Below are positions 51,525 to 63,915 of a stretch of DNA of 64,000 nucleotides, one piece after another. The first letter of the stretch is position 1. The number at the start of each line of letters is the position of its first letter. Location: the NCBI RefSeq assembly GCF_036173125.1, contig NZ_CP108054.1, positions 7,779,001 to 7,843,000 of the forward strand, read 5' to 3'. A program made the position numbers and the translations under genes. The DNA is from Streptomyces sp. NBC_00286 (lineage in GTDB: Bacteria; Actinomycetota; Actinomycetes; Streptomycetales; Streptomycetaceae). Below the pieces are notes generated by a model, which worked only from the letters and a program-made list of their open reading frames with translations, made no database searches and was not told the origin of the DNA.

Positions 51525-53171
51525 ATGGGCGCGCGATCGGCGGACCGGCACGGCAGCGGCGGGCGGCCGGTGCAGACGGGCAAGGGCGAGCGGCTGGCGG
51601 ACTGGGCCGACGGACGGCTCGGGGTCTACGGCCTTGCCAAGGCCCAGATGCGCAAGGTGTTCCCGGACCACCCGTCCTTCATGCTGGGTGAGATCTGCCT
51701 CTACACCTTCCTCATCCTGATCCTCACGGGCGTCTACCTCACCCTGTTCTTCGAGCCGAGCAGCGCCGAGACCGTCTACCACGGTTCGTACGAGCCCCTG
51801 AACGGCATCATCATGACCAGGGCGTACGAGTCCACGCTCGACATCAGCTTCGACGTACGCGGCGGACTCCTCATCCGGCAGATCCACCACTGGGCGGCGG
51901 TCGTGTTCGTCGCCGGGATGCTCATCCACATGATGCGGGTGTTCTTCACCGGGGCGTTCCGCAAGCCGCGCGAGCTGAACTGGCTGTTCGGCTGGACGCT
52001 GCTGTTCCTCGGCATCATCACCGGGCTGACCGGCTACTCGCTCCCCGACGATCTGCTCTCCGGCACGGGCCTGCGCTTCGCCCAGGGTGCGATCCTGTCG
52101 GTGCCGGTCGTGGGAACGTATCTCTCCTTCTTCCTCTTCGGCGGAGAGTTCCCGGGGGACGACATCATCGCCCGGCTGTACCCGATCCACATTCTGCTGC
52201 TGCCGGGGATCATGCTCGGCCTGGTGGTCGCCCATCTGATCCTGGTCTTCTACCACAAGCACACGCAGTTCCCCGGGCCCGGACGCGACCAGAAGTCCGT
52301 GGTCGGGATGCCGTTCCTGCCGGTCTATATGGCCAAGGCGGGCGGCTTCTTCTTCCTGGTCTTCGGTGTGCTGTCGGTGATGGGCGCGATCGCGACCATC
52401 AACCCCGTCTGGGCCATCGGCCCCTACCGCCCCGACCTGGTCGGCACGGGCGCCCAGCCCGACTGGTACCTCGGCTTCTCCGAGGGGCTGATCCGGGTGA
52501 TGCCGGCATGGGAGATCAACGCCTTCGGCCACACCCTGGCGCTCGGCGTCTTCATCCCCTTCTCCCTCTTCCCGCTGATCATGCTCGCGATCGGCGTCTA
52601 TCCGTTCATCGAAGCCTGGATCACCGGCGACAAACGCGAGCACCACATCCTGGACCGCCCGCGCAACGTCCCCACGCGCACCGGCCTCGGCGTCGCCTGG
52701 CTGAGTCTGTACGGGGTGCTGCTGATCGGCGGCGGCAACGACATCGTGGCCACGCGCTTCCATTTGTCGATCAACGTGATCACATGGTCCGTGCGGATCG
52801 GCTTCTTCGTGGTGCCCGTCCTCGCCTTCCTCATCACCAGACGGATCTGCCTCGGGCTGCAACGCCGCGACCGGGACAAAGTGCTGCACGGCAGGGAGTC
52901 CGGCACCATCAAACGACTGCCGAACGGCGAGTTCGTCGAAGTGCACGAACCGCTCTCGCAGGCCCAGCGCTACACCCTCACCCAGCACGAGCACGCCCCG
53001 CCGTACGAGGTGGGCCCGACTGTCGACGCCAACGGTGTCGTCCGGAAGGTCAGACCCACCGAGCGGCTGCGCGCCCGGCTCGCCCGCGTCATGTACGGGC
53101 CGAACACGCACGTCCCCAAACCGACCCCCGAGGAGTACCGGGAACTCACGAGCGGCGACCACCACCACTGA
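51525..53171 (+). CDS. Orphan cytochrome b (QcrB-like)
   Basis: A 548-residue protein related to actinobacterial QcrB of the cytochrome bc1 complex. Heme histidines are in LIRQIHHWAAVVFVAGMLIH and YPIHILLLPG...VVAHLILVFYHKH. The quinol-site motif reads QPDWYLGFSEG where mitochondrial cytochrome b has PEWY. About nine membrane helices precede a ~110-residue cytoplasmic tail. No qcrA or qcrC lies beside it, so it is a second copy outside the qcrCAB operon (inference). Its 3' end overlaps the convergent acyl-CoA dehydrogenase gene by 26 bp. Confidence 0.9.
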   Translation: MGARSADRHGSGGRPVQTGKGERLADWADGRLGVYGLAKAQMRKVFPDHPSFMLGEICLYTFLILILTGVYLTLFFEPSSAETVYHGSYEPLNGIIMTRAYESTLDISFDVRGGLLIRQIHHWAAVVFVAGMLIHMMRVFFTGAFRKPRELNWLFGWTLLFLGIITGLTGYSLPDDLLSGTGLRFAQGAILSVPVVGTYLSFFLFGGEFPGDDIIARLYPIHILLLPGIMLGLVVAHLILVFYHKHTQFPGPGRDQKSVVGMPFLPVYMAKAGGFFFLVFGVLSVMGAIATINPVWAIGPYRPDLVGTGAQPDWYLGFSEGLIRVMPAWEINAFGHTLALGVFIPFSLFPLIMLAIGVYPFIEAWITGDKREHHILDRPRNVPTRTGLGVAWLSLYGVLLIGGGNDIVATRFHLSINVITWSVRIGFFVVPVLAFLITRRICLGLQRRDRDKVLHGRESGTIKRLPNGEFVEVHEPLSQAQRYTLTQHEHAPPYEVGPTVDANGVVRKVRPTERLRARLARVMYGPNTHVPKPTPEEYRELTSGDHHH

Positions 53172-54117
53172 TCCCGCCGCCGAGCACCATGGCCCGGCAC
53201 TCGCCAGGACTGCCCCAGGCGGTCCGCAGGGCGCGGGCCTTGGTCAGCCACAGGGACAGGTCGTACTCCGCGGTGTAGCCGATCGCGCCATGCAGTTGCA
53301 GCGCCGTGCGCGCCGTCGCGTACGCCGCCTCACACGCCGTGACCTTGGCCGCGGCGACGTCCGCCGGGTCCATGGACAGCGCGGCGCCGAAGACGAGCGG
53401 GCACGCGAACTCCAACGCGATCTTCGCATCGGCCAGTTGATGCTTGACCGCCTGAAACGAGCCGATGGGCACGCCGAACTGGTGGCGCTGCTTGACGTAC
53501 GCGACCGTCGTGTCGAGGAGCGCGAGTCCCACCCCCAACGCCTGGGCGGCGGTGGCGAGCCGGGCCCAGGTGAGGGCCCGGGGGAGGGGCGGGTTCCTGG
53601 CGAGGAGTTCACCGCCGGGGTCGAGGCGCGTGAGGCGGCGGGCCGGGTCCAGGGACATACGCACCGGGCCGTGTCCGGGGGCCAGTCGCAGTTCCTTGGC
53701 GCCGACCGCGAGGAGGACCGTGGCCATGTCACCGTCCAGGGCGTACGAACCCTCCGGCGCCACCGTCGCGATCACCTCGCCGGACGCCAGGGCTGGGAGC
53801 AGCCGCTTGGCGGCCTCCAGTTCGTTGAGCAGCACGGCCGCCGCGACCGTCTCCACCAGGGGCCCCGGCACCGCATGCCGCCCCAACTCCACGAAGGCCA
53901 CGGCCAGTTCGACGGGTAGCGGCCCCACTCCCTCGTACGCCTCGGGAACCGCCAGCGCGAAGACCCCCGCGTCGGCGATACGACGCCACAGCGCGCGCCC
54001 GGCCGTGGGGTCCCCGGCGCTCCAGGACCGTATGACCGACGGCGTGTCCGCGGCCGTCAGCATCGCGTCCAGCGAGCGGGCGAAGGCCTGCTGCTCGTCG
54101 TCGAGGAGGAAGCGCAT
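53146..54117 (-). CDS. ipdE2: Acyl-CoA dehydrogenase, IpdE2-like subunit
   Basis: A 323-residue short acyl-CoA dehydrogenase fold: FLLDDEQQAFARSLDAMLTA at the start, KQRHQFGVPIGSFQAVKHQL in the FAD/dimer region, and LQLHGAIGYTAEYDLSLWLT. The length matches IpdE2 (FadE33, ~318 residues), which pairs with IpdE1 as a heteromeric enzyme in HIP breakdown. Its ATG shares one base with the upstream dehydrogenase stop (TGATG), as expected for a two-subunit enzyme. IpdE2 rather than FadE32 cannot be settled here. Confidence 0.78.
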   Translation of the reverse strand: MRFLLDDEQQAFARSLDAMLTAADTPSVIRSWSAGDPTAGRALWRRIADAGVFALAVPEAYEGVGPLPVELAVAFVELGRHAVPGPLVETVAAAVLLNELEAAKRLLPALASGEVIATVAPEGSYALDGDMATVLLAVGAKELRLAPGHGPVRMSLDPARRLTRLDPGGELLARNPPLPRALTWARLATAAQALGVGLALLDTTVAYVKQRHQFGVPIGSFQAVKHQLADAKIALEFACPLVFGAALSMDPADVAAAKVTACEAAYATARTALQLHGAIGYTAEYDLSLWLTKARALRTAWGSPGECRAMVLGGGISGGGRRS

Positions 54118-55268
54118 CAGCGGCGTCCCTTCGGCAGGCCGAGCAGGCGCTCGGCGATGATGTCGCGCTGGATCTCGTTGGTACCGGCGTAGACGGGACC
54201 GGCGAGCGAGAAGACGTAGCCCTCGCTCCAGTCGGTATCCGCCAGCTCGCCCTCCGGGCCCAGCAGATCGAGCGCCGTCTCGTGCAGGGCGATGTCGTAC
54301 TCGGACCAGAAGACCTTGTTCAGGCTGGACTCGGGACCCAGGGGCTCGCCCTGGAGGAAGCGGGAGGCATGGGCGTAGGTGAAGAGCTGGTACGCACGGG
54401 CGCCGATCATCGCGTCGGCCACGCGGTCGCGCAGGGCCGTGTCGGTGGAGTCGCCGTGGGTGTGCCACAGGTCGATGAGCCGGTCGGCGGCGGCCAGGAA
54501 ACGGCCGGGGGAGCGGAGGGTCAGTCCGCGTTCGTTGCCCGCTGTCGACATGGCGACCCGCCAGCCCTGGCCGGGCTCGCCGATCACGTCCTCGTCCGGC
54601 ACGAAGACCTCGTCCAGGAAGAGCTCCGCGAAGGCCGGCTTTCCGTCGAGGCGGCCTATGGGGCGGACGGTGACGCCCGGCGCGCGCAGGTCGAACATCA
54701 CATAGGTGAGCCCCTGGTGGGGCTTCGGGGTGTCGGGCTCACTGCGGAACAGGCCGAACGCGCGGTCGGCGAACGCGGCCCGCGACGACCACGTCTTCTG
54801 CCCGCTCAACAGCCAGCCACCGTCCGTGCGCACCGCCCTCGACCTGAGCGAGGCCAGGTCCGAACCGGCCTCGGGCTCGGACCACGCCTGCGCCCAGATC
54901 ACCTCGCCGGACGCCATGGGCGGCAGGATCCGGGCGCGCTGCTCCTCGGTGCCGTGGTCGAAGAGGGTGGGGGCGAGGAGGCTGATGCCGTTCTGGCTGA
55001 CGCGGCCGGGGGCGCCCGCCGCGTAGTACTCCTCCTCGAAGATCAGCCACTTGAGGAGGCCGACGCTCCGCCCACCGTACTCGGCCGGCCAGGACACCAC
55101 CGACCAGCGGTCCGCGGCCAGTTCGGCCTCCCACGCGCGGTGCGCCGCGAAGCCCTCCTCGGTCTCCAGGGAGGGGAGGGGCGCGGGCGGTACATGCGCG
55201 GCGAGCCAGGCCCTGGCCTCGGCGCGGAACGCCTCGTCGGCGGGGGAGTGGTCCAGGTCCACGGTCAC
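54117..55268 (-). CDS. ipdE1: Acyl-CoA dehydrogenase, IpdE1-like subunit
   Basis: A 383-residue dehydrogenase starting at GTG behind AAGGAAGG. Signs: WPAEYGGRSVGLLKWLIFEE, the FAD loop WAQAWSEPEAGSDLASLRSR, LSGQKTWSSRAAFADRAFGL, and AGPVYAGTNEIQRDIIAERL near the end. The length and neighbours fit IpdE1 (FadE30), which with IpdE2 dehydrogenates a 5-oxo HIP-CoA intermediate. Both subunit genes are driven from the divergent promoter that carries the KstR2-like operator at 55355-55374. Confidence 0.82.
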   Translation of the reverse strand: MTVDLDHSPADEAFRAEARAWLAAHVPPAPLPSLETEEGFAAHRAWEAELAADRWSVVSWPAEYGGRSVGLLKWLIFEEEYYAAGAPGRVSQNGISLLAPTLFDHGTEEQRARILPPMASGEVIWAQAWSEPEAGSDLASLRSRAVRTDGGWLLSGQKTWSSRAAFADRAFGLFRSEPDTPKPHQGLTYVMFDLRAPGVTVRPIGRLDGKPAFAELFLDEVFVPDEDVIGEPGQGWRVAMSTAGNERGLTLRSPGRFLAAADRLIDLWHTHGDSTDTALRDRVADAMIGARAYQLFTYAHASRFLQGEPLGPESSLNKVFWSEYDIALHETALDLLGPEGELADTDWSEGYVFSLAGPVYAGTNEIQRDIIAERLLGLPKGRR

Positions 55269-55270
55269 CT

Positions 55271-55320
55271 TCCTTGGAGTTCCTTGGAGTTCCTTGGAGT
55301 TCCTCAGCGTTCCTCGGAAT
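55271..55320. repeat. 10-bp tandem repeat in the ipdE1 leader
   Basis: TCCTTGGAGT occurs three times exactly (55271-55300), followed by two degenerate units (TCCTCAGCGT, TCCTCGGAAT). On the coding strand each unit carries AAGGA, a Shine-Dalgarno core; the nearest lies just before the GTG start. Confidence 0.85.
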
Positions 55321-55354
55321 CCATCGAGGCTCCGCGAAGCGAAAAACGGCCTTC

Positions 55355-55374
55355 CCTAACAAGTGTTTGGTAGG
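55355..55374. promoter_or_regulatory. KstR2-like operator, ipdE1/ipdF divergent promoter
   Basis: CCTAACAAGTGTTTGGTAGG contains AACAAGTGTTTGGT (55358-55371), which fits the mycobacterial KstR2 consensus AnCAAGnnCTTGnT at all but one fixed position. It lies 14 bp before the ipdF-like start and 87 bp before the ipdE1 start. A related site is at 62145-62161. The repressor gene is three positions away. Function is inference. Confidence 0.78.
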
Positions 55375-55387
55375 TTAGCGTGGCTCC

Positions 55388-56173
55388 ATGACAGACGTCG
55401 AGGGTCCGGCGTACGTGCCAGGACACGGGCTGCTGAAGGGGCGTACGGCCGTCATCACCGCCGCCGCGGGCGCGGGGATAGGCGGCGCCACGGCACGCCG
55501 CTTCCTGGAGGAGGGTGCGCGCGTACTGATCAGCGACGCGCACGCACGGCGACTGAAGGAGTACGAGGGGGAGCTGGCGGCCGAGTTCGAGGGGGTCGCG
55601 GCGCTCGCCTGCGACGTCACCGACGAGGCGCAGGTGCAGGCGCTCTTCGACACCGCCCTGCAGCTGCACGGGCGGCTGGACATCGTGGTCAACAACGCCG
55701 GTCTGGGCGGGACTTCGGACCTCGTCGACATGACGGACGAGCAGTGGTCGAGGGTGCTCGACGTGACGCTGAACGGGACGTTCCGGTGCGTACGCGCGGC
55801 CCTGCGGGCCTTCCGCGACGGTGGACACGGTGGCGTGATCGTCAACAACGCCTCCGTCGTCGGCTGGCGCGCCCAGGTCGGCCAGGCGCACTACGCCGCC
55901 GCGAAGGCGGGCGTGATGGCGCTGACCCGGTGCGCGGCCGTGGAGGCGGCCGAGTACGGGGTGCGGGTGAACGCCGTGTCGCCCAGCCTCGCCATGCACC
56001 CCCACCTCGTGAAGGTCACCAGCCCCGAACTGCTGGAGGAGCTCACCGAGCGCGAGGCCTTCGGGCGGTATGCCGAGCCCTGGGAGGTGGCCAACGTGAT
56101 CGTGTTCCTCGCGTCCGGCTATTCCTCGTACATGACGGGCGAGGTCGTCTCCGTCAGCAGCCAACACGCCTAG
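55388..56173 (+). CDS. ipdF: SDR, IpdF-like (5-hydroxy-HIP-CoA dehydrogenase)
   Basis: A 261-residue SDR with cofactor motif VITAAAGAGIGGATARRFLE and NNAGLGGTSDLVDMTDEQWS. The active site is NNASVVGWRAQVGQAHYAAA with K following, and the C-terminus is EVVSVSSQHA. These stretches agree with what I recall of mycobacterial IpdF (Rv3559c), which oxidises the 5-hydroxyl of HIP-CoA. It is the first gene right of the operator, with the kstR2-like gene 22 bp downstream. Confidence 0.82.
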   Translation: MTDVEGPAYVPGHGLLKGRTAVITAAAGAGIGGATARRFLEEGARVLISDAHARRLKEYEGELAAEFEGVAALACDVTDEAQVQALFDTALQLHGRLDIVVNNAGLGGTSDLVDMTDEQWSRVLDVTLNGTFRCVRAALRAFRDGGHGGVIVNNASVVGWRAQVGQAHYAAAKAGVMALTRCAAVEAAEYGVRVNAVSPSLAMHPHLVKVTSPELLEELTEREAFGRYAEPWEVANVIVFLASGYSSYMTGEVVSVSSQHA

Positions 56174-56195
56174 GACGACAGACGACAATGGAACC

Positions 56196-56807
56196 GTGCC
56201 TACGAAGAAGAAGCCCCAGGTGACCGCCTCGCCCGCCAGGCGCAGTGAACTCCTCGGCACCGCCGCCGAGGTCTTCGCCGAGCAGGGCTACAACGCCACC
56301 ACCGTCCGCAAGATCGCCGACCACGCGGGCATGCTCGCGGGCAGCCTCTACTACCACTTCGACTCCAAGGAATCGATGCTGGAAGAGATCCTGCGGACCT
56401 TCCTGGACGAGCTGTGGGACGGGTACGACACCGTCCTGGATGCCGAGCTCGGGCCCCGGGAGACGCTGGAGGCCCTGGTCATCGAGTCCTTCCGGGAGAT
56501 CGACCGGCACCGCGCGGCCGTCGCCATCTACCAGAAGGAGTCCAAGCACCTGGTGTCGCAGGAGCGCTTCGCGTTCCTCGCCGACTCGCAGCGCAAGTTC
56601 GAGAAGGCCTGGCTGAGCACGCTGGAGCGGGGGGTGGCCGCCGAGGTGTTCCGGGCGGACCTCGACATACGGCTCACCTACCGGTTCGTCCGCGACACGG
56701 TGTGGGTCGCCGCGTCCTGGTACCGGCCCGGCGGACAGCACGGCCCCGAGGAGATCGCCCGGCAGTACCTGTCGATGGTGCTGGACGGGATCGCAGTACG
56801 TACGTAA
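56196..56807 (+). CDS. kstR2: TetR-family repressor, KstR2-like
   Basis: A 203-residue regulator. The DNA-binding helix-turn-helix is TAAEVFAEQGYNATTVRKIA with LAGSLYYHFDSKESMLEEIL. The ligand domain contains FREIDRHRAAVAIYQKESKH and ends FVRDTVWVAASWYRPGG, very close to the matching segment I recall for M. tuberculosis KstR2. KstR2 represses HIP-catabolism genes and is released by HIP-CoA. GTG start. It sits between ipdF and fadA6, as in mycobacteria. Confidence 0.85.
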   Translation: MPTKKKPQVTASPARRSELLGTAAEVFAEQGYNATTVRKIADHAGMLAGSLYYHFDSKESMLEEILRTFLDELWDGYDTVLDAELGPRETLEALVIESFREIDRHRAAVAIYQKESKHLVSQERFAFLADSQRKFEKAWLSTLERGVAAEVFRADLDIRLTYRFVRDTVWVAASWYRPGGQHGPEEIARQYLSMVLDGIAVRT

Positions 56808-56889
56808 CCGAACTGGGTCGCACCGGATCGACCTCGAACCGGACCGACCGTAGCCGAACTGGATCGACTTGATCTGACTGGGAGTTGTC

Positions 56890-58050
56890 ATGGCCGAGAC
56901 CTACATCGTCGAAGCGGTCCGTACGCCCGTCGGGCGGCGCAAAGGGGGCCTGAGCGGGGTGCATCCCGCCGACCTTGGCGCGCATGTGCTGAAGGCTCTC
57001 GTCGCGCGCTGCGGAGTCGACCCGGCCGCTGTCGAGGACGTCGTCTTCGGCTGTCTGGACACCGTGGGGCCGCAGGCCGGTGATATCGCGAGGACGTGCT
57101 GGCTGGCGGCCGGACTGCCCGAGGAGGTGCCGGGCGTGACGGTCGACCGGCAGTGCGGTTCGTCGCAGCAGGCCGTGCACTTCGCCGCGCAGGGTGTGCT
57201 GTCCGGCACGCAGGACCTGGTGGTCGCGGGCGGGGTCCAGAACATGACGCAGGTCCCCATCGGCTTCGCCTCCGGGCGGGCCACCGCTCCGCTGGGGCTC
57301 ACGGAGGGGCCGTTCGCGGGAAGCGAGGGGTGGCGGGCCCGGTACGGGGACCAGCCGGTCAACCAGTTCGTCGGCGCCGAGATGATCGCCGCCAAGTGGG
57401 GCATCAGCCGCCTCGACCAGGAGGAGTTCGCGCTGCGGTCCCATCAGCGGGCTCTCGGGGCGATCGACGAAGGCCGCTTCGCGCGCGAGACCGTGCCGTA
57501 CGGCGACGTCACGGTCGACGAAGGGCCGCGCCGGGACACCTCACTGGAGAAGATGGCGGGCCTGAAGCCGGTCATCGACGGCGGCACCATCACCGCGGCC
57601 TGTTCCTCCCAGGTCTCCGACGGTGCCGCCGCGATGCTGCTGGCCTCCGAGCGGGCGGTACGCGAACACGGCCTGACGCCCCGCGCGCGCGTGCACCACC
57701 TCTCCGTACGAGGCGAGGACCCGATCCGCATGCTCACGGCCCCGATCCCGGCCACCGCACACGCCCTCAAGAAGACCGGCCTGACCATCGACGACATCGA
57801 CCTCGTGGAGATCAACGAAGCCTTCGCCCCCGTCGTCCTGGCCTGGCTGAAGGAGACGGGCGCGGATCCGGCAAAGGTCAACGTCAACGGAGGCGCGATC
57901 GCCCTCGGCCACCCGCTGGGCGCGACCGGCGTCAAGCTGATGACGACGCTGCTGCACGAACTGGAGCGCACGGGAGGCCGGTTCGGCCTGCAGACGATGT
58001 GCGAGGGGGGCGGTCAGGCGAACGTGACGATCATCGAACGGCTCTCTTGA
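56890..58050 (+). CDS. fadA6: Thiolase, FadA6-like
   Basis: A 386-residue type-II thiolase that cleaves 3-ketoacyl-CoA. Catalytic residues are Cys in VTVDRQCGSSQQAVHFAAQG, His in GGAIALGHPLGATGVKLM, and Cys in MCEGGGQANVTI; NEAFAPVVLAWLKE is conserved. FadA6 handles the later thiolysis steps after ring C opening. It lies 82 bp after kstR2 on the same strand, and the gap contains degenerate CGAACYGGAYCGAC-like repeats. Confidence 0.85.
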   Translation: MAETYIVEAVRTPVGRRKGGLSGVHPADLGAHVLKALVARCGVDPAAVEDVVFGCLDTVGPQAGDIARTCWLAAGLPEEVPGVTVDRQCGSSQQAVHFAAQGVLSGTQDLVVAGGVQNMTQVPIGFASGRATAPLGLTEGPFAGSEGWRARYGDQPVNQFVGAEMIAAKWGISRLDQEEFALRSHQRALGAIDEGRFARETVPYGDVTVDEGPRRDTSLEKMAGLKPVIDGGTITAACSSQVSDGAAAMLLASERAVREHGLTPRARVHHLSVRGEDPIRMLTAPIPATAHALKKTGLTIDDIDLVEINEAFAPVVLAWLKETGADPAKVNVNGGAIALGHPLGATGVKLMTTLLHELERTGGRFGLQTMCEGGGQANVTIIERLS

Positions 58051-58051
58051 T

Positions 58052-58321
58052 TCAGAGGGAGCGGTACACGTCGCGCCGGTTGCCGACCTTGACGACGAGA
58101 ATGATGAGCTGGCCGTCGTCGATGCAGTAAGCCACGCGGAAGTCACCGACGCGCAACCGGTACAGGTCATCGTGGCCGGAGAGCTTCTTCACGTCGGCGT
58201 CGTCGCGGTACGGATCGTCGCCGAGCCGCGTGAGCGCAGTGAGGATGCGCATGGCGCTGGTTCGGTCGATGGTCCGGAGTTGGCGCTGGGCGGTGGCCGT
58301 GAATCGGAACGCGTACTTCAC
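58052..58321 (-). CDS. relE: RelE/ParE-family toxin
   Basis: An 89-residue RelE-type mRNA-interferase toxin. MKYAFRFTATAQRQLRTIDR is the N-terminal pattern, LGDDPYRDDADVKKLSGHDD the loop, and LYRLRVGDFRVAYCIDDGQL the core with catalytic Arg/Tyr candidates. GTG starts inside the antitoxin stop (GTGA). It ends one base from the fadA6 stop on the opposite strand. It looks intact. Confidence 0.9.
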   Translation of the reverse strand: MKYAFRFTATAQRQLRTIDRTSAMRILTALTRLGDDPYRDDADVKKLSGHDDLYRLRVGDFRVAYCIDDGQLIILVVKVGNRRDVYRSL

Positions 58322-58584
58322 GCGGCGCCCCGGTCGTCGGTCTCGCTGAACAGATCCGCAAGGACCTCGGCCATGCTCACCGTGGACTCGTCGAGGTGCT
58401 GGAGCGCTTCGCGGGCCAGCAGTTCGTCTGCCGCGTCCTCAAGCGCGTCGTAATCCGGCATGGGCACGAGCGCGGCGACCGGGGTGCCATTGCGAGTGAT
58501 CACGGTCGCCTCGCCTGCCTCGGCCTTGTCGAGGATCGAGGCGAACCCTGCACGGGCTTCGCGAATGCTCTTGGTCTCGGACAT
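58318..58584 (-). CDS. Phd/YefM-family antitoxin
   Basis: An 88-residue antitoxin from ATG 58584. The N-terminal DNA-binding domain reads KSIREARAGFASILDKAEAG and VITRNGTPVAALVPMPDYDA; the acidic, disordered C-terminus (STVSMAEVLADLFSETDDRG) would bind the toxin. It precedes and overlaps relE, the usual order, and probably autoregulates the pair. Confidence 0.9.
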   Translation of the reverse strand: MSETKSIREARAGFASILDKAEAGEATVITRNGTPVAALVPMPDYDALEDAADELLAREALQHLDESTVSMAEVLADLFSETDDRGAA

Positions 58585-58616
58585 ACCTCGAGTGTACGCG
58601 GTGGCGTGTACAACGG

Positions 58617-59669
58617 TCACCGATCGGCCATAGCCAGCTCCTGAAGCACCCCCTCCGCCTCCGTCATCACGCGTTCCACCAGCTCCGCGCACGACGGCAG
58701 GTCCTCGATCACGCCGGCCACCTGGCCCGATGCCATCACCCCCAGATCCGTACGCCCCTCGACCATCGACGCGCGCAGCAGCATCGGCGTGTTCGCGGCG
58801 AGCAGGACCTGGCCCCAGGACAGGTTCTTGCCGTGCTTCATGGCGAGACCGTCGCGGATCAGCGCGGGCCAGGTGAGGCCGGAGAGCTTGCGGAACGTGG
58901 CGGCTCGGCGCACTGCCCGCGCCAGGGATCTTGTACGGCCCGCTCCCTCAAGGGAGTTGACCAGGTCCGTGCGGAGCATGCGGTGGGGCAGTCCGTCCAC
59001 TTCCCTCGTCACCGTGACGTCCTTGACCGTCGCCGTCAGGTACTCGGCCTTCACGGCGTCCGGGACCGTGGAGTCCGAGGTGAGCAGGAAGCGGGTGCCC
59101 ATCGCGATGCCCGCCGCGCCGTACGCGAGCGCCGCGACCAGGCCCCGGCCGTCGAAGAAGCCGCCCGCTGCCACGACCGGTATCTCCACCGCGTCCACGA
59201 CCTGCGGCAACAGCACCGTCGTCGCCACCTCGCCCGTGTGCCCGCCGCCCTCGCCGCCCTGCACGATCACCGCGTCGGCGCCCCAGGCCGCGACCTTCTC
59301 GGCATGGCGGCGGGCCCCTACGGACGGGATGACGACGACACCCGCGTCCTTCAGCTCGGTGATCAGCTCACGGGAAGGCGCGAGCGCGAACGAGGCGACC
59401 TTCACGCCCTCGTCGATGATGATCCGCACCCGGTCGTGGGCATCGCCCGCGTCCGCCCGCAGGTTCACACCGAACGGCGCGTCCGTACGGGACTTGACCT
59501 CCCGGACGGCCCTCCTCAGCTCCTCCAGGCCCATGGTCGCGGAGGCCAGGATCCCCAGAGCGCCCGCGTTCGCGGAGGCGGAGACCAGCCGGGGGCCCGC
59601 GACCCAGCCCATACCGGTCTGCACGATCGGGTGGCGTACCCCGACGAGTTTCGTCAGCGTGGTCTCCAT
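58617..59669 (-). CDS. ipdC: Nitronate-monooxygenase-fold oxidoreductase, IpdC-like
   Basis: A 350-residue FMN-dependent TIM-barrel protein: VGVRHPIVQTGMGWVAGPRL, APFGVNLRADAGD, WGADAVIVQGGEGGGHTGEV, and IPVVAAGGFFDGRGLVAALA. Position (ipdA-ipdB-ipdC order, TGATG overlap with ipdB) and length agree with IpdC (Rv3553), which acts on HIP-derived CoA thioesters before ring C opening. Classical nitronate monooxygenase activity is possible but less likely in this setting. Confidence 0.82.
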   Translation of the reverse strand: METTLTKLVGVRHPIVQTGMGWVAGPRLVSASANAGALGILASATMGLEELRRAVREVKSRTDAPFGVNLRADAGDAHDRVRIIIDEGVKVASFALAPSRELITELKDAGVVVIPSVGARRHAEKVAAWGADAVIVQGGEGGGHTGEVATTVLLPQVVDAVEIPVVAAGGFFDGRGLVAALAYGAAGIAMGTRFLLTSDSTVPDAVKAEYLTATVKDVTVTREVDGLPHRMLRTDLVNSLEGAGRTRSLARAVRRAATFRKLSGLTWPALIRDGLAMKHGKNLSWGQVLLAANTPMLLRASMVEGRTDLGVMASGQVAGVIEDLPSCAELVERVMTEAEGVLQELAMADR

Positions 59670-60430
59670 CAGCTCCTGACCTCACGGTTGCGCAGCCCCT
59701 GCGGGTCGAGCACCTCGCGTATCAACTCCAGCTCCTCCCCAGTGGGTCCGCGGGTGTACGGCACCTCCTCGGGAACCGTCAGCTCGAAGCCCGTCGCCTC
59801 CCTGACCTCCTCGACCGTCACCCCGGGATGCAGCGAGGCGAGCCGCATCGAGCGGTCCGGGGTCGCGAAGTCGAACACACCGAGGTTGGAGACGACCCGC
59901 GGTATGCGGTGGTAGCGGCTCGCCGTGGGACCGGCCGCCGCGGCGCTGTCGTACCCCACCCCGCAGATCATGTCGACCTTCTCGACGAAGACCCGGGTGG
60001 AGTGCCTGGGGACCCAGTAACTGACCGGATTGTTGAGGGTGTTGACCGGCGCGCCCCGCACCCCGAGAAGCTGCCGCGCGGGCCGCTCCCAGTCGCCTAT
60101 GCAGGAGATGTTCTGGTTGCCGAACCGGTCTATCTGGCTGGCGCCCATCATCACGTGGCGTCGGCCGCCGGTGACCATCGTGAGGTGCTGCCGGTACGGC
60201 AGCCAGCCCTCCACGGTACCGTCCGGGCCGACCAGCATCGCCTCGCCGTCGGTGAGGAGCAGGTCCGGGGCGAAGGTCAGCCTGGCGAGCCGGGCGCCGA
60301 CCGACGGGACGGCACCCATGGGGCTGGCCAGCACCTCGCCGTTGTCCCGCCAGGCCTCGGCGCAGGCGATCACGCAGTACTCGGCCCGCGTGACGTCGCT
60401 CAGTACCTCGCTGCTCCGTACCTCGCTCAT
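59669..60430 (-). CDS. ipdB: COCHEA-CoA hydrolase beta subunit, IpdB-like
   Basis: A 253-residue CoA-transferase-fold subunit from ATG 60430. Signs: CVIACAEAWRDNGEVLASPM, GARLARLTFAPDLLLTDGEA, GGRRHVMMGASQIDRFGNQN, and VSNLGVFDFATPDRSMRLAS. IpdAB opens the last steroid ring by C-C hydrolysis rather than CoA transfer. It shares TGATG junctions with both ipdA and ipdC, so the subunits are co-translated. Confidence 0.85.
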   Translation of the reverse strand: MSEVRSSEVLSDVTRAEYCVIACAEAWRDNGEVLASPMGAVPSVGARLARLTFAPDLLLTDGEAMLVGPDGTVEGWLPYRQHLTMVTGGRRHVMMGASQIDRFGNQNISCIGDWERPARQLLGVRGAPVNTLNNPVSYWVPRHSTRVFVEKVDMICGVGYDSAAAAGPTASRYHRIPRVVSNLGVFDFATPDRSMRLASLHPGVTVEEVREATGFELTVPEEVPYTRGPTGEELELIREVLDPQGLRNREVRS

Positions 60431-61299
60431 CAGCGCTCCTCGTTCGACGCATGCCAGGCTTGTACGGCCGTCTGGTAGTCCTTCTCGCCCCCGTGCAGGA
60501 ACCGCTCGGCGAACTCCGGCCAGGGCGTGGTCGCGTACAGCCGCTGGAAGTCCTCGTCCCGGTCGTAGTCGGGTGCGCAGGACGTGAAGTGCGCCCCGTT
60601 CGGGGCCTCTACGACGCCGGTCACGCTGTGCCGTTTGATCAGCAGCGTCTGCGGGGCGGCCTCCTTCGTCAGCTCGGCCGTGTCGACGATGCGCTCGCAG
60701 GAGACATACGCGGTGTCGGCCGCCTCGCAGAACAGGTCGTCGAAGTACGGATCCGGGCCCAGGTACTGCCCGTTGCCGACCCGGTCCGCTCGGTTCACAT
60801 GGACCAGCGCGGCGTCCATGCGCAGGGCGGGCATGGCGACGAACGTCTCCTGGAGTCCCGTCGATGCGTCCTCGTACGGTGAAGTGACCGTCCGCAGCCC
60901 GGGGTTGACCCGCATCACGTCCGAGCCGAGGCCGGCCCGCACCGGTATGAAGGGCAGCCGGTTCGCGGCGGCGTGCAGGCCCCACATGAACATCGCCTCG
61001 TCGATCTCCATCAGTTCGAGAGCACCGCTCTCGCGCGCCGAGCGGTAGTGCGGTTCGAGGGGGATCGAGTCGAGGGTCGCGAAGGCGGCGACCAGTTTCC
61101 GTATCCGCCCGGCGGCCGCGAGCATGCCGACGTCCGGACCGCCGTACGAGACGACTGTGAGATCGGTGATCCCGGAACGGAGCAGTGCTCTCACCAGTGC
61201 CATCGGCTTGCGGCGTGACCCCCAGCCGCCGATGCCGATGGTCATCCCGCTCTCCAGACGGCCGACGACCTCCTCCGCCGACATGGTCTTGTCGCTCAC
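60430..61299 (-). CDS. ipdA: COCHEA-CoA hydrolase alpha subunit, IpdA-like
   Basis: A 289-residue CoA-transferase-fold subunit from GTG 61299, after GGAGGACCG. Signs: MTIGIGGWGSRRKPMALVRA, LTVVSYGGPDVGMLAAAGRI, and DEAMFMWGLHAAANRLPFIP, plus VNRADRVGNGQYLGPDPYFD. With IpdB it hydrolyses COCHEA-CoA. Its start overlaps the echA20-like stop as GTGA. Confidence 0.85.
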   Translation of the reverse strand: MSDKTMSAEEVVGRLESGMTIGIGGWGSRRKPMALVRALLRSGITDLTVVSYGGPDVGMLAAAGRIRKLVAAFATLDSIPLEPHYRSARESGALELMEIDEAMFMWGLHAAANRLPFIPVRAGLGSDVMRVNPGLRTVTSPYEDASTGLQETFVAMPALRMDAALVHVNRADRVGNGQYLGPDPYFDDLFCEAADTAYVSCERIVDTAELTKEAAPQTLLIKRHSVTGVVEAPNGAHFTSCAPDYDRDEDFQRLYATTPWPEFAERFLHGGEKDYQTAVQAWHASNEER

Positions 61300-62123
61300 C
61301 GGTCCTCCTCTCCAGATGTCTCCTGGCCGAATGTGCTCCGGACCCGGTCCGCCACTCCGCTGAGGCCCGCCTCGAAGGTGAAGCCCTGCTCGAAGCGGTA
61401 GCTGCGGCGTACGTCGACGGGGTCGATGCCGTTGATGGCGGACTTGGCGAGCCGGATCAGCTGTCCGTCTTTGGCCGCGATCTCCCGCGCCAACTCCAGG
61501 GCGGCGTCGAGGACTTCGGCACGCGGCACGACCCGCCACACCGAACCGTGCGCGTGCAGCTCGGCCGCCGTGGCCGTACGCGAGGTGTAGTACAGCGCCC
61601 GCATCAGGTGCTGTGGCACGAGGCGCGCCAGATGCGTGGCCGCGCCCAGTGCGCCCCGGTCCAGCTCGGGCAGCCCGAACGTGGCGTCGTCGCTCGCCAC
61701 GATCGCGTCCGCGTTCCCCACGAGACCGATGCCGCCGCCCAGGCAGAAGCCCCGTACGGCCGCCACCACGGGCACCTCGCACTCGTACACCGCGGCGAAC
61801 GCCTCGGCGCAGCCGCGGTTGGCGCCTATCAGCGCACCATGGCCCGTCGCGCCCCGCCGACCGTCCCGCTGCCGTCCGTCTCTCTCCTGCCCGTCGTGCT
61901 CCTGCCCGTCCTGCTCCCGCTGTATCTCCTTGATGTCGACACCGGCGTTGAACCCCCGCCCCTCGGCGGTCAGCACTACACAGCGGATCTCGGGGTCGCG
62001 GCCCGCCGTGCGCACGGCGTCGGCCAGGTCGAACCAGCCGTGCACCGGAAGCGCGTTCACGGGCGGGAAGTCGACCGTGACGACGGAAATCCCCTTCTCC
62101 GGGGACGAGGTGGAGACACCCAT
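61296..62123 (-). CDS. echA20: Enoyl-CoA hydratase-fold hydrolase, EchA20-like
   Basis: A 275-residue crotonase-fold protein from ATG 62123. Signs: GISVVTVDFPPVNALPVHGW, LTAEGRGFNAGVDIKEIQRE, CEVPVVAAVRGFCLGGGIGL, and GLPELDRGALGAATHLARLV. These match what I recall of EchA20, which opens steroid ring D. Residues ~71-96 are a low-complexity DGQEH/DGQER/DGRQR insert coded by ~15-nt repeats, absent from the mycobacterial protein as I remember it. The KstR2-like site lies 22 bp upstream. Confidence 0.85.
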   Translation of the reverse strand: MGVSTSSPEKGISVVTVDFPPVNALPVHGWFDLADAVRTAGRDPEIRCVVLTAEGRGFNAGVDIKEIQREQDGQEHDGQERDGRQRDGRRGATGHGALIGANRGCAEAFAAVYECEVPVVAAVRGFCLGGGIGLVGNADAIVASDDATFGLPELDRGALGAATHLARLVPQHLMRALYYTSRTATAAELHAHGSVWRVVPRAEVLDAALELAREIAAKDGQLIRLAKSAINGIDPVDVRRSYRFEQGFTFEAGLSGVADRVRSTFGQETSGEEDR

Positions 62124-62144
62124 GCGCGCATCAGCTACCTTTCC

Positions 62145-62161
62145 ACCAAACATTTGTTAGG
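62145..62161. promoter_or_regulatory. KstR2-like operator, echA20/SDR divergent promoter
   Basis: ACCAAACATTTGTTAGG shares 16 of 17 bases with the inverted copy of the site at 55355-55374. Against AnCAAGnnCTTGnT it has two symmetric changes. It lies between the echA20-like start (62123) and the SDR start (62211), where a repressor could control both transcripts. Confidence 0.75.
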
Positions 62162-62210
62162 TTCGATCTGATGTGAAGGTAACAGCGATTGCCGACCAGC
62201 GGGAGGCCCT

Positions 62211-63002
62211 GTGGATAACCGGGAGGACAGCCGGCAGGACAAGCGACTCGTGGTGGTCACCGGCGGAACCCGCGGCGTCGGCGCCGGGATCGCCCGGGCG
62301 TTCGCAGAGGCCGGTGCCGAGGTCGTGGCCTGCGCCCGCAGACCCCCCGAAATACCGGTCGAGGGAGTCGAGTTCATGCCCCTCGACGTGCGCGACCCGG
62401 CGGCCGTGCGCGCCTTCTTCGACGCGCTACCTCGCCTCGATGTCCTGGTCAACAACGCGGGCGGCGCCCCGTACCGGCTGCTCGACCGGGCGGACGCCGC
62501 CGAGCGGCACGCGCGCGTGATCGAGCTCAACCTCACCGCACCGCTGACCGTGTCCCTGGCGGCGTACGAACATCTCAAACGTGCCCGGGGCTCGATCGTG
62601 ATGATCGGCAGCGTCGGCGGGACCCGGCCCTCTCCCGGTACGGCGGCCTACGGAGCGGCCAAGGCCGGCCTGGAGAATCTGGCCCGGTCGATGGCCGTGG
62701 AGTGGGCGCCGGACGTCCGCGTCAACACGCTGGTCGTCGGGATGGTCCGCACCGAACTGTCCCACCTCCACTACGGGGACGATGAGGGCATCGCGTCCGT
62801 GGCCCGCACGGTCCCTCTGGGCCGCCTCGCCGCTCCCTCGGACATCGGCGAAGCGGCCGTGTTCCTCGCCTCGGACGCCGCCGCGTACATCACCGGCGCC
62901 AGCCTGCTCGTGCACGGCGGGGGAGAGCGGCCCGCCTTCCTGGACGCGGCGACGGTCAACAAGGCCGCGACTGCCAACAAGAGGGTCAATAAGGGGAGTT
63001 GA
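62211..63002 (+). CDS. SDR of the steroid cluster (Rv3549c-like)
   Basis: A 263-residue SDR with VVVTGGTRGVGAGIARAFAE, VNNAGGAPYRLLDRADAAER, and the active site GSVGGTRPSPGTAAYGAAKA. The start ATAACCGG region gives GTG 62211 (VDNREDSRQ). The C-terminal ~20 residues are an Asn/Lys/Ala-rich tail. It lies where mycobacteria have Rv3549c, divergent from echA20. The substrate within HIP breakdown is unassigned. Confidence 0.82.
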   Translation: MDNREDSRQDKRLVVVTGGTRGVGAGIARAFAEAGAEVVACARRPPEIPVEGVEFMPLDVRDPAAVRAFFDALPRLDVLVNNAGGAPYRLLDRADAAERHARVIELNLTAPLTVSLAAYEHLKRARGSIVMIGSVGGTRPSPGTAAYGAAKAGLENLARSMAVEWAPDVRVNTLVVGMVRTELSHLHYGDDEGIASVARTVPLGRLAAPSDIGEAAVFLASDAAAYITGASLLVHGGGERPAFLDAATVNKAATANKRVNKGS

Positions 63003-63003
63003 G

Positions 63004-63915
63004 ATGACCGGAATCTGTTGCGGCCGGGTAGTGATCGTCACCGGGGCGGGACGGGGCCTCGGGCGGGCGCATGCCCTCGCCTTCGCGGCCGAGGGGGCGC
63101 GGGTCGTCGTCAACGACCTCGGTGTCGGGCTCGACGGAGCGCCCGGGCCGGACAGCCCGGCCGCGCTTGTCGTCGAGGAGATCCGGGCGGGCGGAGGGGA
63201 GGCCGTCGCGCATGGCGGGGACGTCGCCACGCGCGCGGGCGCCGAGTCGCTGATCGCGGCGGCGCTCGATGCGTTCGGGCGGCTCGACACGCTCGTCAAC
63301 AACGCCGGGTTTCTGCGCGACCGGATGCTTGTGAATCTCGACGAGGACGACTGGGACGCTGTTGTGCGCGTCCACCTGAAGGGGCACTTTCTGCCGCTTC
63401 AGCAGGCCGCCGCGCACTGGCGGGCGGAGGCGAAGGCCGGGCGTACGCCTGAGGCGCGCGTCGTCAACACCAGCTCCGGAGCGGGGCTGTTGGGGTCGGT
63501 CGGGCAGGGCAACTACAGCGCGGCGAAGGCGGGCATCGTCGGGCTCACGCTGGTGGCTGCCGCCGAGATGGGCCGCTATGGAGTGCAGGTCAACGCCATC
63601 GCGCCGGCCGCGCGTACGCGGATGACGGAGCGGGCCTTCGCCGACACGATGGCGGCGCCGGAGCCTGGCACTGGCTTCGACGCCATGGCGCCCGAGAACG
63701 TCTCGCCGCTCGTCGTCTGGCTCGGCTCGGCCGCGTGCGTCGGGGTGACTGGGCGGGTCTTTGAGGCGGAGGGTGGGCGGATCACTGTCATGGAGGGATG
63801 GCGGGCTGGGCCGACCGCGGACAATGGGGCGCGGTGGACGCCGGCCGAGGCGGGGGATGCGGCTCGCAAGTTGCTTGCGGGGGCGGAGGTGCCGGGGGCT
63901 GTGTACGGGGCGTGA
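63004..63915 (+). CDS. SDR of the steroid cluster (Rv3548c-like)
   Basis: A 303-residue SDR starting one base after the previous stop, behind AAGGGGAG. Cofactor motif VIVTGAGRGLGRAHALAFAA; VVVNDLGVGLDGAPGPDSPA; active site NTSSGAGLLGSVGQGNYSAA with K following. The ~300-residue length and NDLGVGLDG motif resemble the dehydrogenase module of multifunctional beta-oxidation enzymes, so it may oxidise a 3-hydroxyacyl-CoA. Positionally equivalent to Rv3548c. Confidence 0.83.
   Translation: MTGICCGRVVIVTGAGRGLGRAHALAFAAEGARVVVNDLGVGLDGAPGPDSPAALVVEEIRAGGGEAVAHGGDVATRAGAESLIAAALDAFGRLDTLVNNAGFLRDRMLVNLDEDDWDAVVRVHLKGHFLPLQQAAAHWRAEAKAGRTPEARVVNTSSGAGLLGSVGQGNYSAAKAGIVGLTLVAAAEMGRYGVQVNAIAPAARTRMTERAFADTMAAPEPGTGFDAMAPENVSPLVVWLGSAACVGVTGRVFEAEGGRITVMEGWRAGPTADNGARWTPAEAGDAARKLLAGAEVPGAVYGA

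Follow-up and report, generated by a model that had tools for sequence, protein, structure and literature searches.

Does a streptomycete chromosome carry a working set of genes for the opening of steroid rings C and D and, if it does, which substrate would such a set serve? The question is raised by an island of catabolic genes in Streptomyces sp. NBC_00286 (genome G000, a single contig of 9.85 Mb), which, by its open reading frame calls, spans positions 53146 to 63915 of the window, where an earlier interpretation of the letters alone (the sequence-only reading) had also placed it. The window is the whole stretch of DNA analysed, 64 000 nucleotides corresponding to positions 7779001–7843000 of the genome, and island coordinates are given in its numbering. 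The cited literature on steroid ring degradation concerns mainly mycolic-acid actinobacteria and some proteobacteria, and among the matches listed no title or abstract opening described a ring C/D module in Streptomyces. The reading that we favour, with a probability of roughly 55%, is that the island is a working ring C/D-opening module repressed by KstR2, in a bacterium that is without the usual ring A/B pathway and that scavenges HIP-type fragments as CoA esters.

Gene identities and order

The products of the island were compared by blastp with those of a mycobacterium-like genome, G438, over four adjacent 20 kb stretches, in which IpdA was called from an internal start and for which we assigned tentative gene names from order and sequence. 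All 11 island genes are uninterrupted open reading frames in the window. On the forward strand, ipdF (55388–56173), encoding a short-chain dehydrogenase/reductase (SDR), is followed by kstR2 (56196–56807), encoding a TetR-family repressor, and by the thiolase gene fadA6 (56890–58050); the products are 65, 51 and 68% identical, respectively, to the same-named G438 proteins, the last value comparing with 45% against FadA5. The reverse strand carries echA20 (61296–62123; crotonase-family ring D hydrolase, 59%), ipdA (60430–61299; 53%), ipdB (59669–60430; 54%) and ipdC (58617–59669; nitronate-monooxygenase-family reductase, 68%, PF03060). Beyond them on the forward strand lie an Rv3549c-type SDR gene (SDR1; 62211–63002, start possibly 62253) and an Rv3548c-type SDR gene (SDR2; 63004–63915, PF00106), 56 and 66% identical to their G438 counterparts, which bears out the two flanking SDRs of the sequence-only reading. 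In a scan from which SDR2 was left out, NCBIfam models scored above cut-off for ipdF (NF005880), fadA6 (NF005865), echA20 (NF005925; 399.5 bits, cut-off 260) and SDR1 (NF005893). Judged by these matches, ipdC, ipdF, echA20, fadA6 and both SDR genes are present as in the KstR2 regulon. Among the nine gene names proposed earlier, ipdF, kstR2, fadA6, ipdC, ipdB, ipdA and echA20 stand, whereas ipdE1 and ipdE2 do not (see below). The claimed agreement in order and orientation with the mycobacterial KstR2 regulon held in the G438 comparison, and the stop–start overlaps are as described, being TGATG for fadE31/fadE32, ipdA/ipdB and ipdB/ipdC and GTGA for echA20/ipdA.

The best solved relatives of IpdA and IpdB are 6co6_A (E 6.5e-101) and 6co6_B (E 1.5e-89), and the IpdAB structures, which we take to be those of the R. 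jostii and M. tuberculosis enzymes, far outscore glutaconate CoA-transferase as matches to the two proteins. At the IpdA position occupied by Ala in 6coj and by Glu in 6co6, the window protein has Glu, and IpdB keeps, within TDGEA, the beta-subunit Gly that stands in for the Glu of CoA-transferases; an alignment check of the active site had been set beforehand, and both residues proved to be retained. Gly57 of the beta subunit is a hydrolase-type rather than a transferase residue (PMC5380842), and the ipdA and ipdB orthologues carry residues of the hydrolase type. The closest KstR2 structures to the island repressor are 4w97 and 4w1u (E about 1.5e-57), although another regulator, 2ibd, scores higher (E 1.2e-64), and the protein contains YRFVRDTVW, close to the published KstR2 motif YRFIRDTVW (PMC13176608).

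The two genes named ipdE1 and ipdE2 in the sequence-only reading encode acyl-CoA dehydrogenase (ACAD) subunits on the reverse strand. IpdE1 is FadE30 and IpdE2 is FadE33, the pair forming the 5-OH-HIP-CoA dehydrogenase, whereas FadE32 or FadE31–FadE32 acts on MOODA-CoA (PMC8708139). The window genes are likewise an ACAD-family pair, but the product of 53146–54117 is 49% identical to FadE32 and 33% to FadE33, and scores 158 bits with the IpdE2 model against a cut-off of 450, and that of 54117–55268 is 61% identical to FadE31 and 39% to FadE30. In trees of 23 and 24 rows the pair falls in the FadE31 and FadE32 clades, each with support of 100/100. The ipdE1 and ipdE2 labels were rejected on the strength of blastp, the trees and the sub-cut-off model score, and the genes are named fadE31 and fadE32 here.

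In G438, the order of genes is fadE33–fadE32–fadE31–fadD3, operator, fadE30–ipdF; the same place in the window reads fadE32–fadE31, operator, ipdF. Both fadE31 and fadE32 of the regulon are present in the cluster, while fadD3, fadE30 and fadE33 were not found in it by blastp against the G438 genes or, for the two ACADs, in the trees. Over the examined stretches of G000, the best FadE33 match by score was 37% identical, with a 44% partial match at 4297462. What the cluster lacks are the genes to activate HIP and to dehydrogenate its side chain; because these three are missing and the two ACADs had been misnamed, the island is not the full HIP set, and its earlier description as an intact set for HIP, which would need genes for the HIP-CoA ligase and the HIP side-chain dehydrogenase, finds no support.

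Putative KstR2 operators

In the literature, KstR2 sites conform to AnCAAGnnCTTGnT and are found in three divergent promoters (PMC3068626). The pattern ANCAANNNNTTGNT has two matches in the window against 0.02 expected, one per divergent promoter: putative operator 1, AACAAGTGTTTGGT (55358–55371, unstranded), between fadE31 and ipdF, and putative operator 2, ACCAAACATTTGTT (62145–62158, unstranded), between echA20 and the SDR genes. The two sites differ from AnCAAGnnCTTGnT by one and two bases, and operator 1 with its flank, CCCTAACAAGTGTTTGGTAGGTTAGC, is closely similar to the Rv3560c/Rv3561 probe that was bound by KstR2 (PMC3068626). Both operators recur in 13 of 14 further Streptomyces clusters, the remaining one (L071) having the second only. 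We also searched a set of 80 loci, which are the closest relatives by IpdA rather than an even sample, have flanks of 10 kb at most and include 18 loci shorter than 20 kb (at least two, L164 and L165, being by their length the contigs of genomes G377 and G239). In this set the pattern occurs in 67 of the 68 locatable fadE31/ipdF gaps and 67 of the 78 locatable echA20/SDR gaps, with five matches outside these gaps in 1.50 Mb. Such recurrence of order and operators in other genomes is beyond chance.

Compared with the mycobacterial and rhodococcal KstR2 regulon (Kendall 2010; Crowe 2017), the island has the same orthologues, order and divergent layout for ipdF–kstR2–fadA6, ipdC–ipdB–ipdA–echA20, the two SDR genes and fadE31/fadE32, and kstR2 is accompanied by variant AnCAAGnnCTTGnT-type putative operators, which occupy two of the three promoter positions on record. 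It differs in that the cluster is without fadD3, fadE30 and fadE33, in operators that are off consensus, and in that no steroid genes adjoin it in the inspected stretch. Orthology, order and the two conserved sites together support the proposal of a regulated ring C/D catabolic set.

Distribution of the cluster in Streptomyces

At a threshold of E 1e-20, 291 of the 392 Streptomyces genomes sampled have an IpdA match; 277 of these reach E 1e-78 or better, and the other 14, weak at E 2.0e-29 to 3.5e-22, were taken as paralogues. Of 246 genomes drawn class-wide, Streptomyces included, 69 have a match at E 1e-20, and these belong to 24 of the 103 genera. The reading of the locus as an isolated island was rejected, because IpdA is present in 277 of 392 genomes and the same flank genes lie near the cluster in several of them. 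The view that Streptomyces are not treated as steroid degraders agrees with a survey that gives 55 of 57 Streptomyces genomes as without the steroid pathway (Bergstrand 2016, PMC4810484), but not with this frequency of IpdA. About 70% of the genomes sampled from this genus, the main producer of antibiotics, have an orthologue, and in most of these the ring A/B marker HsaC is missing: at E 1e-60, the G438 HsaC matches 50 of the 392 genomes, 38 at 47% identity or more and 12 at 40–46%. All 38 also have IpdA, and 239 of the 277 IpdA-positive genomes, G000 included, are without HsaC at that level.

Within the 80-locus set, all 11 genes are matched in 56 of the 62 loci of at least 20 kb; of the six exceptions, five have a gene set that continues past the end of the stretch, and the sixth, L229, has its fadE32-like match far away on the opposite strand. 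Three loci have fadE30 (L220, L223 and L235) and three have KshA (L226, L229 and L235), while FadD3 and FadE33 were found in none of the 80 within flanks of 10 kb or less, a count that covers the examined stretches only, as the FadD3-like and FadE33-like genes of genome G173 lie past a 10 kb flank. Among the 14 further clusters, 12 are without fadE30 beside ipdF, and G328 and G173 have it there. The trimmed make-up is established for most of these closely inspected loci (62 long, 80 in total, 14 clusters) rather than for all 277, and the island, far from being an intact exception, is a trimmed set that has many relatives elsewhere in Streptomyces.

We examined 16 IpdA-negative genomes downstream of gltD. 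In eight (G017, G077, G027, G003, G045, G092, G044 and G043), gltD still lies near the downstream flank genes, with no cluster gene found between them; rearrangement is greater in the remaining eight. When the presence or absence of IpdA is mapped on a GltB tree of 30 chosen genomes, six changes are required, at least four of them forced by well-supported branches. The tree contains 15 IpdA-negative rows from a list of 20 (five were left out) and six rows chosen as discordant, a sampling that makes it unusable for recounting the co-occurrence described below. Repeated loss of the cluster fits these observations best, and repeated gain at one site is possible.

An extended version of the same cluster type occurs in G173 (L078, L111, L112), G328 (L074, L113), L220, L223 and L235, with the operator pattern checked in L074, L078 and across the 80-locus set as a whole. 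It differs in having fadE30 beside ipdF, accompanied in L220 and L235 by a hydratase-like gene. G173 has in addition FadD3-like and FadE33-like genes, HsaA–G, KstD, KshA and KshB, and L235 has KshA, KshB, HsaE, HsaF, HsaG and part of HsaA; judged by their genes, both are apparent true steroid degraders. Growth of G000 on sterols finds no support in its genes. No HsaC orthologue was found in G000 at E 1e-60 or better, and the sole KshA_C match in the genome (370294–371115; 91 bits, above the family cut-off) was rejected as a KshA orthologue, being 26% identical to reference KshA, though a putative KstD, 53–54% identical, is encoded at G000:C1:8991546–8993294 (L149). KstD matches of 52–54% occur in seven of 12 other streptomycetes tested, and one of 41% in an eighth. 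Within the approximately 0.5 Mb of G000 compared, HsaA, HsaD, HsaE, HsaF and HsaG gave no match at E 1e-10, and there was one HsaB-like match of 48%. G000 may still grow on hydrindane acids.

Proposed route, alternatives and neighbouring features

The most likely role of the island is that of a ring C/D module fed with ready-made bicyclic acids, their activation being encoded elsewhere. In the route that we propose, whose enzyme steps are taken from papers on mycobacteria and rhodococci, a bicyclic (hydrindane) acid would enter as its CoA ester, probably formed by an unlinked FadD3-like ligase encoded at 4.29 Mb, and, where side-chain dehydrogenation is required, an unlinked FadE30-like enzyme encoded at 4.34 Mb would probably carry it out. 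One or both SDRs and the thiolase would complete removal of the side-chain, IpdF and IpdC would give HIEC-CoA, EchA20 would open ring D to give COCHEA-CoA and IpdAB would open ring C; cleavage by FadA6 would then yield MOODA-CoA, whose beta-oxidation FadE31/FadE32 would begin. From this we infer an active module whose host would scavenge the HIP-type fragments that other steroid degraders release. A streptomycete has been reported to grow on HIP and to accumulate MOODA (Hashimoto and Hayakawa 1977, as cited in PMC5380842), steroid intermediates are reported to be released transiently by bile-acid degraders (PMC6668416), and a review holds that cross-feeding could occur (PMC8399759).

The FadD3-like gene of G000 (4287449–4289077) adjoins Ltp-like, DUF35-like and hydratase-like genes, the latter two names being provisional. 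A FadD3-like ligase is present in 277 of the 392 genomes at E 1e-90 (273 at 1e-108 or better); 268 genomes have both it and IpdA, nine IpdA only, five the FadD3-like gene only and 110 neither (phi 0.915, uncorrected for phylogeny), and four of the five genomes with the FadD3-like gene only are 78–86% complete. In both mycobacterium-like genomes tested, the best match of the ligase is the cluster FadD3 (54%), and a second mycobacterial paralogue has a lower total score but 56–59% identity over the C-terminal two thirds. The name therefore goes no further than FadD3-like, true FadD3 being a candidate identity. Some 50 kb away, at 4337479–4338636, lies a FadE30-like gene (55–60%) next to a FadE33-like one; the FadE30-like protein branches as sister to the true FadE30 clade (90/92). 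The whole FadD3-like/Ltp-like/DUF35-like/hydratase-like locus, with CTGAC-N5-GTCAG elements, lies at G000:C1:4272596–4298694 (L115, L116), with neighbours that we presume to be of LLM type and amidohydrolase type.

Other acyl-CoA genes were seen during these comparisons. A FadA6 paralogue, 64% identical to reference FadA6, lies within another acyl-CoA gene cluster at G000:C1:396647–397795 (L032), and a large acyl-CoA catabolic region at G000:C1:772853–840482 (L152–L156) contains several FadE30-, FadE33-, Ltp- and SDR-like genes. In a close relative, G239, a divergent pair of FadE33-like (58%) and FadE30 (65%) genes lies away from the ipd cluster (L163, 9517–11887).

A number of observations weigh against the favoured reading. 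A loose form of the operator pattern is unenriched genome-wide, with 23 places against 37 for a reversed control, so that the two island sites are convincing by their position and conservation only. The KstR2 pattern was found in none of the FadD3-like loci scanned, in G000 or elsewhere; instead, as read by eye, CTGAC-N5-GTCAG is present in all 17 other intergenic regions inspected at such loci, with a second copy in 14 of them. The co-occurrence of ligase and IpdA takes no account of shared descent. In a tree, the Streptomyces FadD3-like proteins join the second mycobacterial paralogue and the G173 cluster FadD3 (94/98) and not, cleanly, mycobacterial FadD3, the placement of G578 being uninformative because only 25% of the columns of its row are filled. 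Finally, FadE30 of the 64–69% class, present in three of 13 streptomycetes tested (G173, G328 and G239), was not found in G000, and an R. equi fadE30 deletion mutant fails to grow on 5OH-HIP (PMC3161971). The gap in the cluster could equally fit hydroxy-HIPs, substitution by the unlinked FadE30-like enzyme or a different substrate, and the substrate may be HIP itself, a HIP from bile acids with a hydroxylated side chain, or an acid that is not a steroid.

A broader alternative, which we hold tentatively and with the odds somewhat against it, is that in most streptomycetes the route serves a bicyclic acid other than plain HIP (a bile-acid hydroxy-HIP, or a non-steroid hydrindane or terpenoid acid) and is split between the KstR2 cluster and the separately regulated FadD3-like/Ltp/DUF35/hydratase locus, the two having been lost together several times.

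More specifically, the module may be specialised for HIPs that already bear the side-chain hydroxyl, as from 7-hydroxy bile acids, an explanation that we regard as unlikely. Dehydrogenation by FadE30/FadE33 and hydration would therefore be unneeded, which would explain both the missing genes and the retained SDRs and thiolase. HIP-CoA ACAD mutants of P. stutzeri Chol1 are reported to grow normally on 7alpha-hydroxy bile acids, because the side-chain hydroxyl is then present from the outset, and to accumulate a HIP derivative when the bile acid has no 7alpha-hydroxyl, and RS22710 of RHA1 is assigned the next step, that of the hydroxyacyl-CoA dehydrogenase (PMC8399759); RS22710 is the counterpart of Rv3548c (PMC5380842, Table 1). 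The presence of fadE30 in just three of 80 loci, two of which (L220 and L235) also carry the extra hydratase-like gene, points the same way. However, C. testosteroni seems to remove the 7alpha-hydroxyl and then rehydrate, so the bypass is not general (PMC8399759), and G000 does have its FadE30-like gene elsewhere.

Recruitment of the route for a bicyclic or alicyclic acid that is not a steroid, such as one derived from a terpenoid, and that enters at the level of HIC-CoA seems to us similarly doubtful. It would accommodate the many genomes with IpdA and without HsaC, the lack of HIP-specific enzymes in the cluster and the deviation of the operators from AnCAAGnnCTTGnT, but all the ring-opening enzymes are kept at 53–68% identity to the mycobacterium-like version, KshA and Hsa genes accompany this cluster in some streptomycetes (G173 and L235), and there is no known candidate substrate. 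A decaying remnant of a formerly complete steroid pathway is very improbable: fadD3, fadE30 and fadE33 are missing, absence of the whole cluster is scattered on the GltB tree and the source strain has a toxin–antitoxin insertion, but the window has all 11 reading frames open, the full 11 are matched in 56 of the 62 long loci, and the operators are conserved.

If the KstR2-repressed module does work, soil bacteria of this genus would consume the ring C/D fragments of others, or another bicyclic acid, and surveys based on ring A/B genes could miss it. As a single locus the island is less unusual than it had seemed, and as biology more interesting: the pathway named was the right one, but it is trimmed and widespread in the genus. 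Its hosts are harmless soil organisms in which KstR2, IpdAB and EchA20 could be studied, with a clear genetic test of the substrate.

The genes bordering the island look unrelated to its pathway, being presumably, judged by sequence, cytochrome-b-like upstream and ankyrin-, regulator-, chorismate-mutase- and PepN-like downstream. Between the convergent fadA6 and ipdC, on the reverse strand at 58052–58584, lie genes for a ParE-like toxin and a Phd/YefM-like antitoxin; no such pair was found at the same junction in G377 or G239, nor any match at E 1e-10 in the 80-locus set. A repeat-rich insertion in echA20 (61861–61917), of approximately 15-base units whose protein repeats resemble DGQE/DGRQ, is missing or far shorter in three aligned relatives. 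Between the start of fadE31 and operator 1, at 55270–55304, there are 3.5 exact copies of TTCCTTGGAG.

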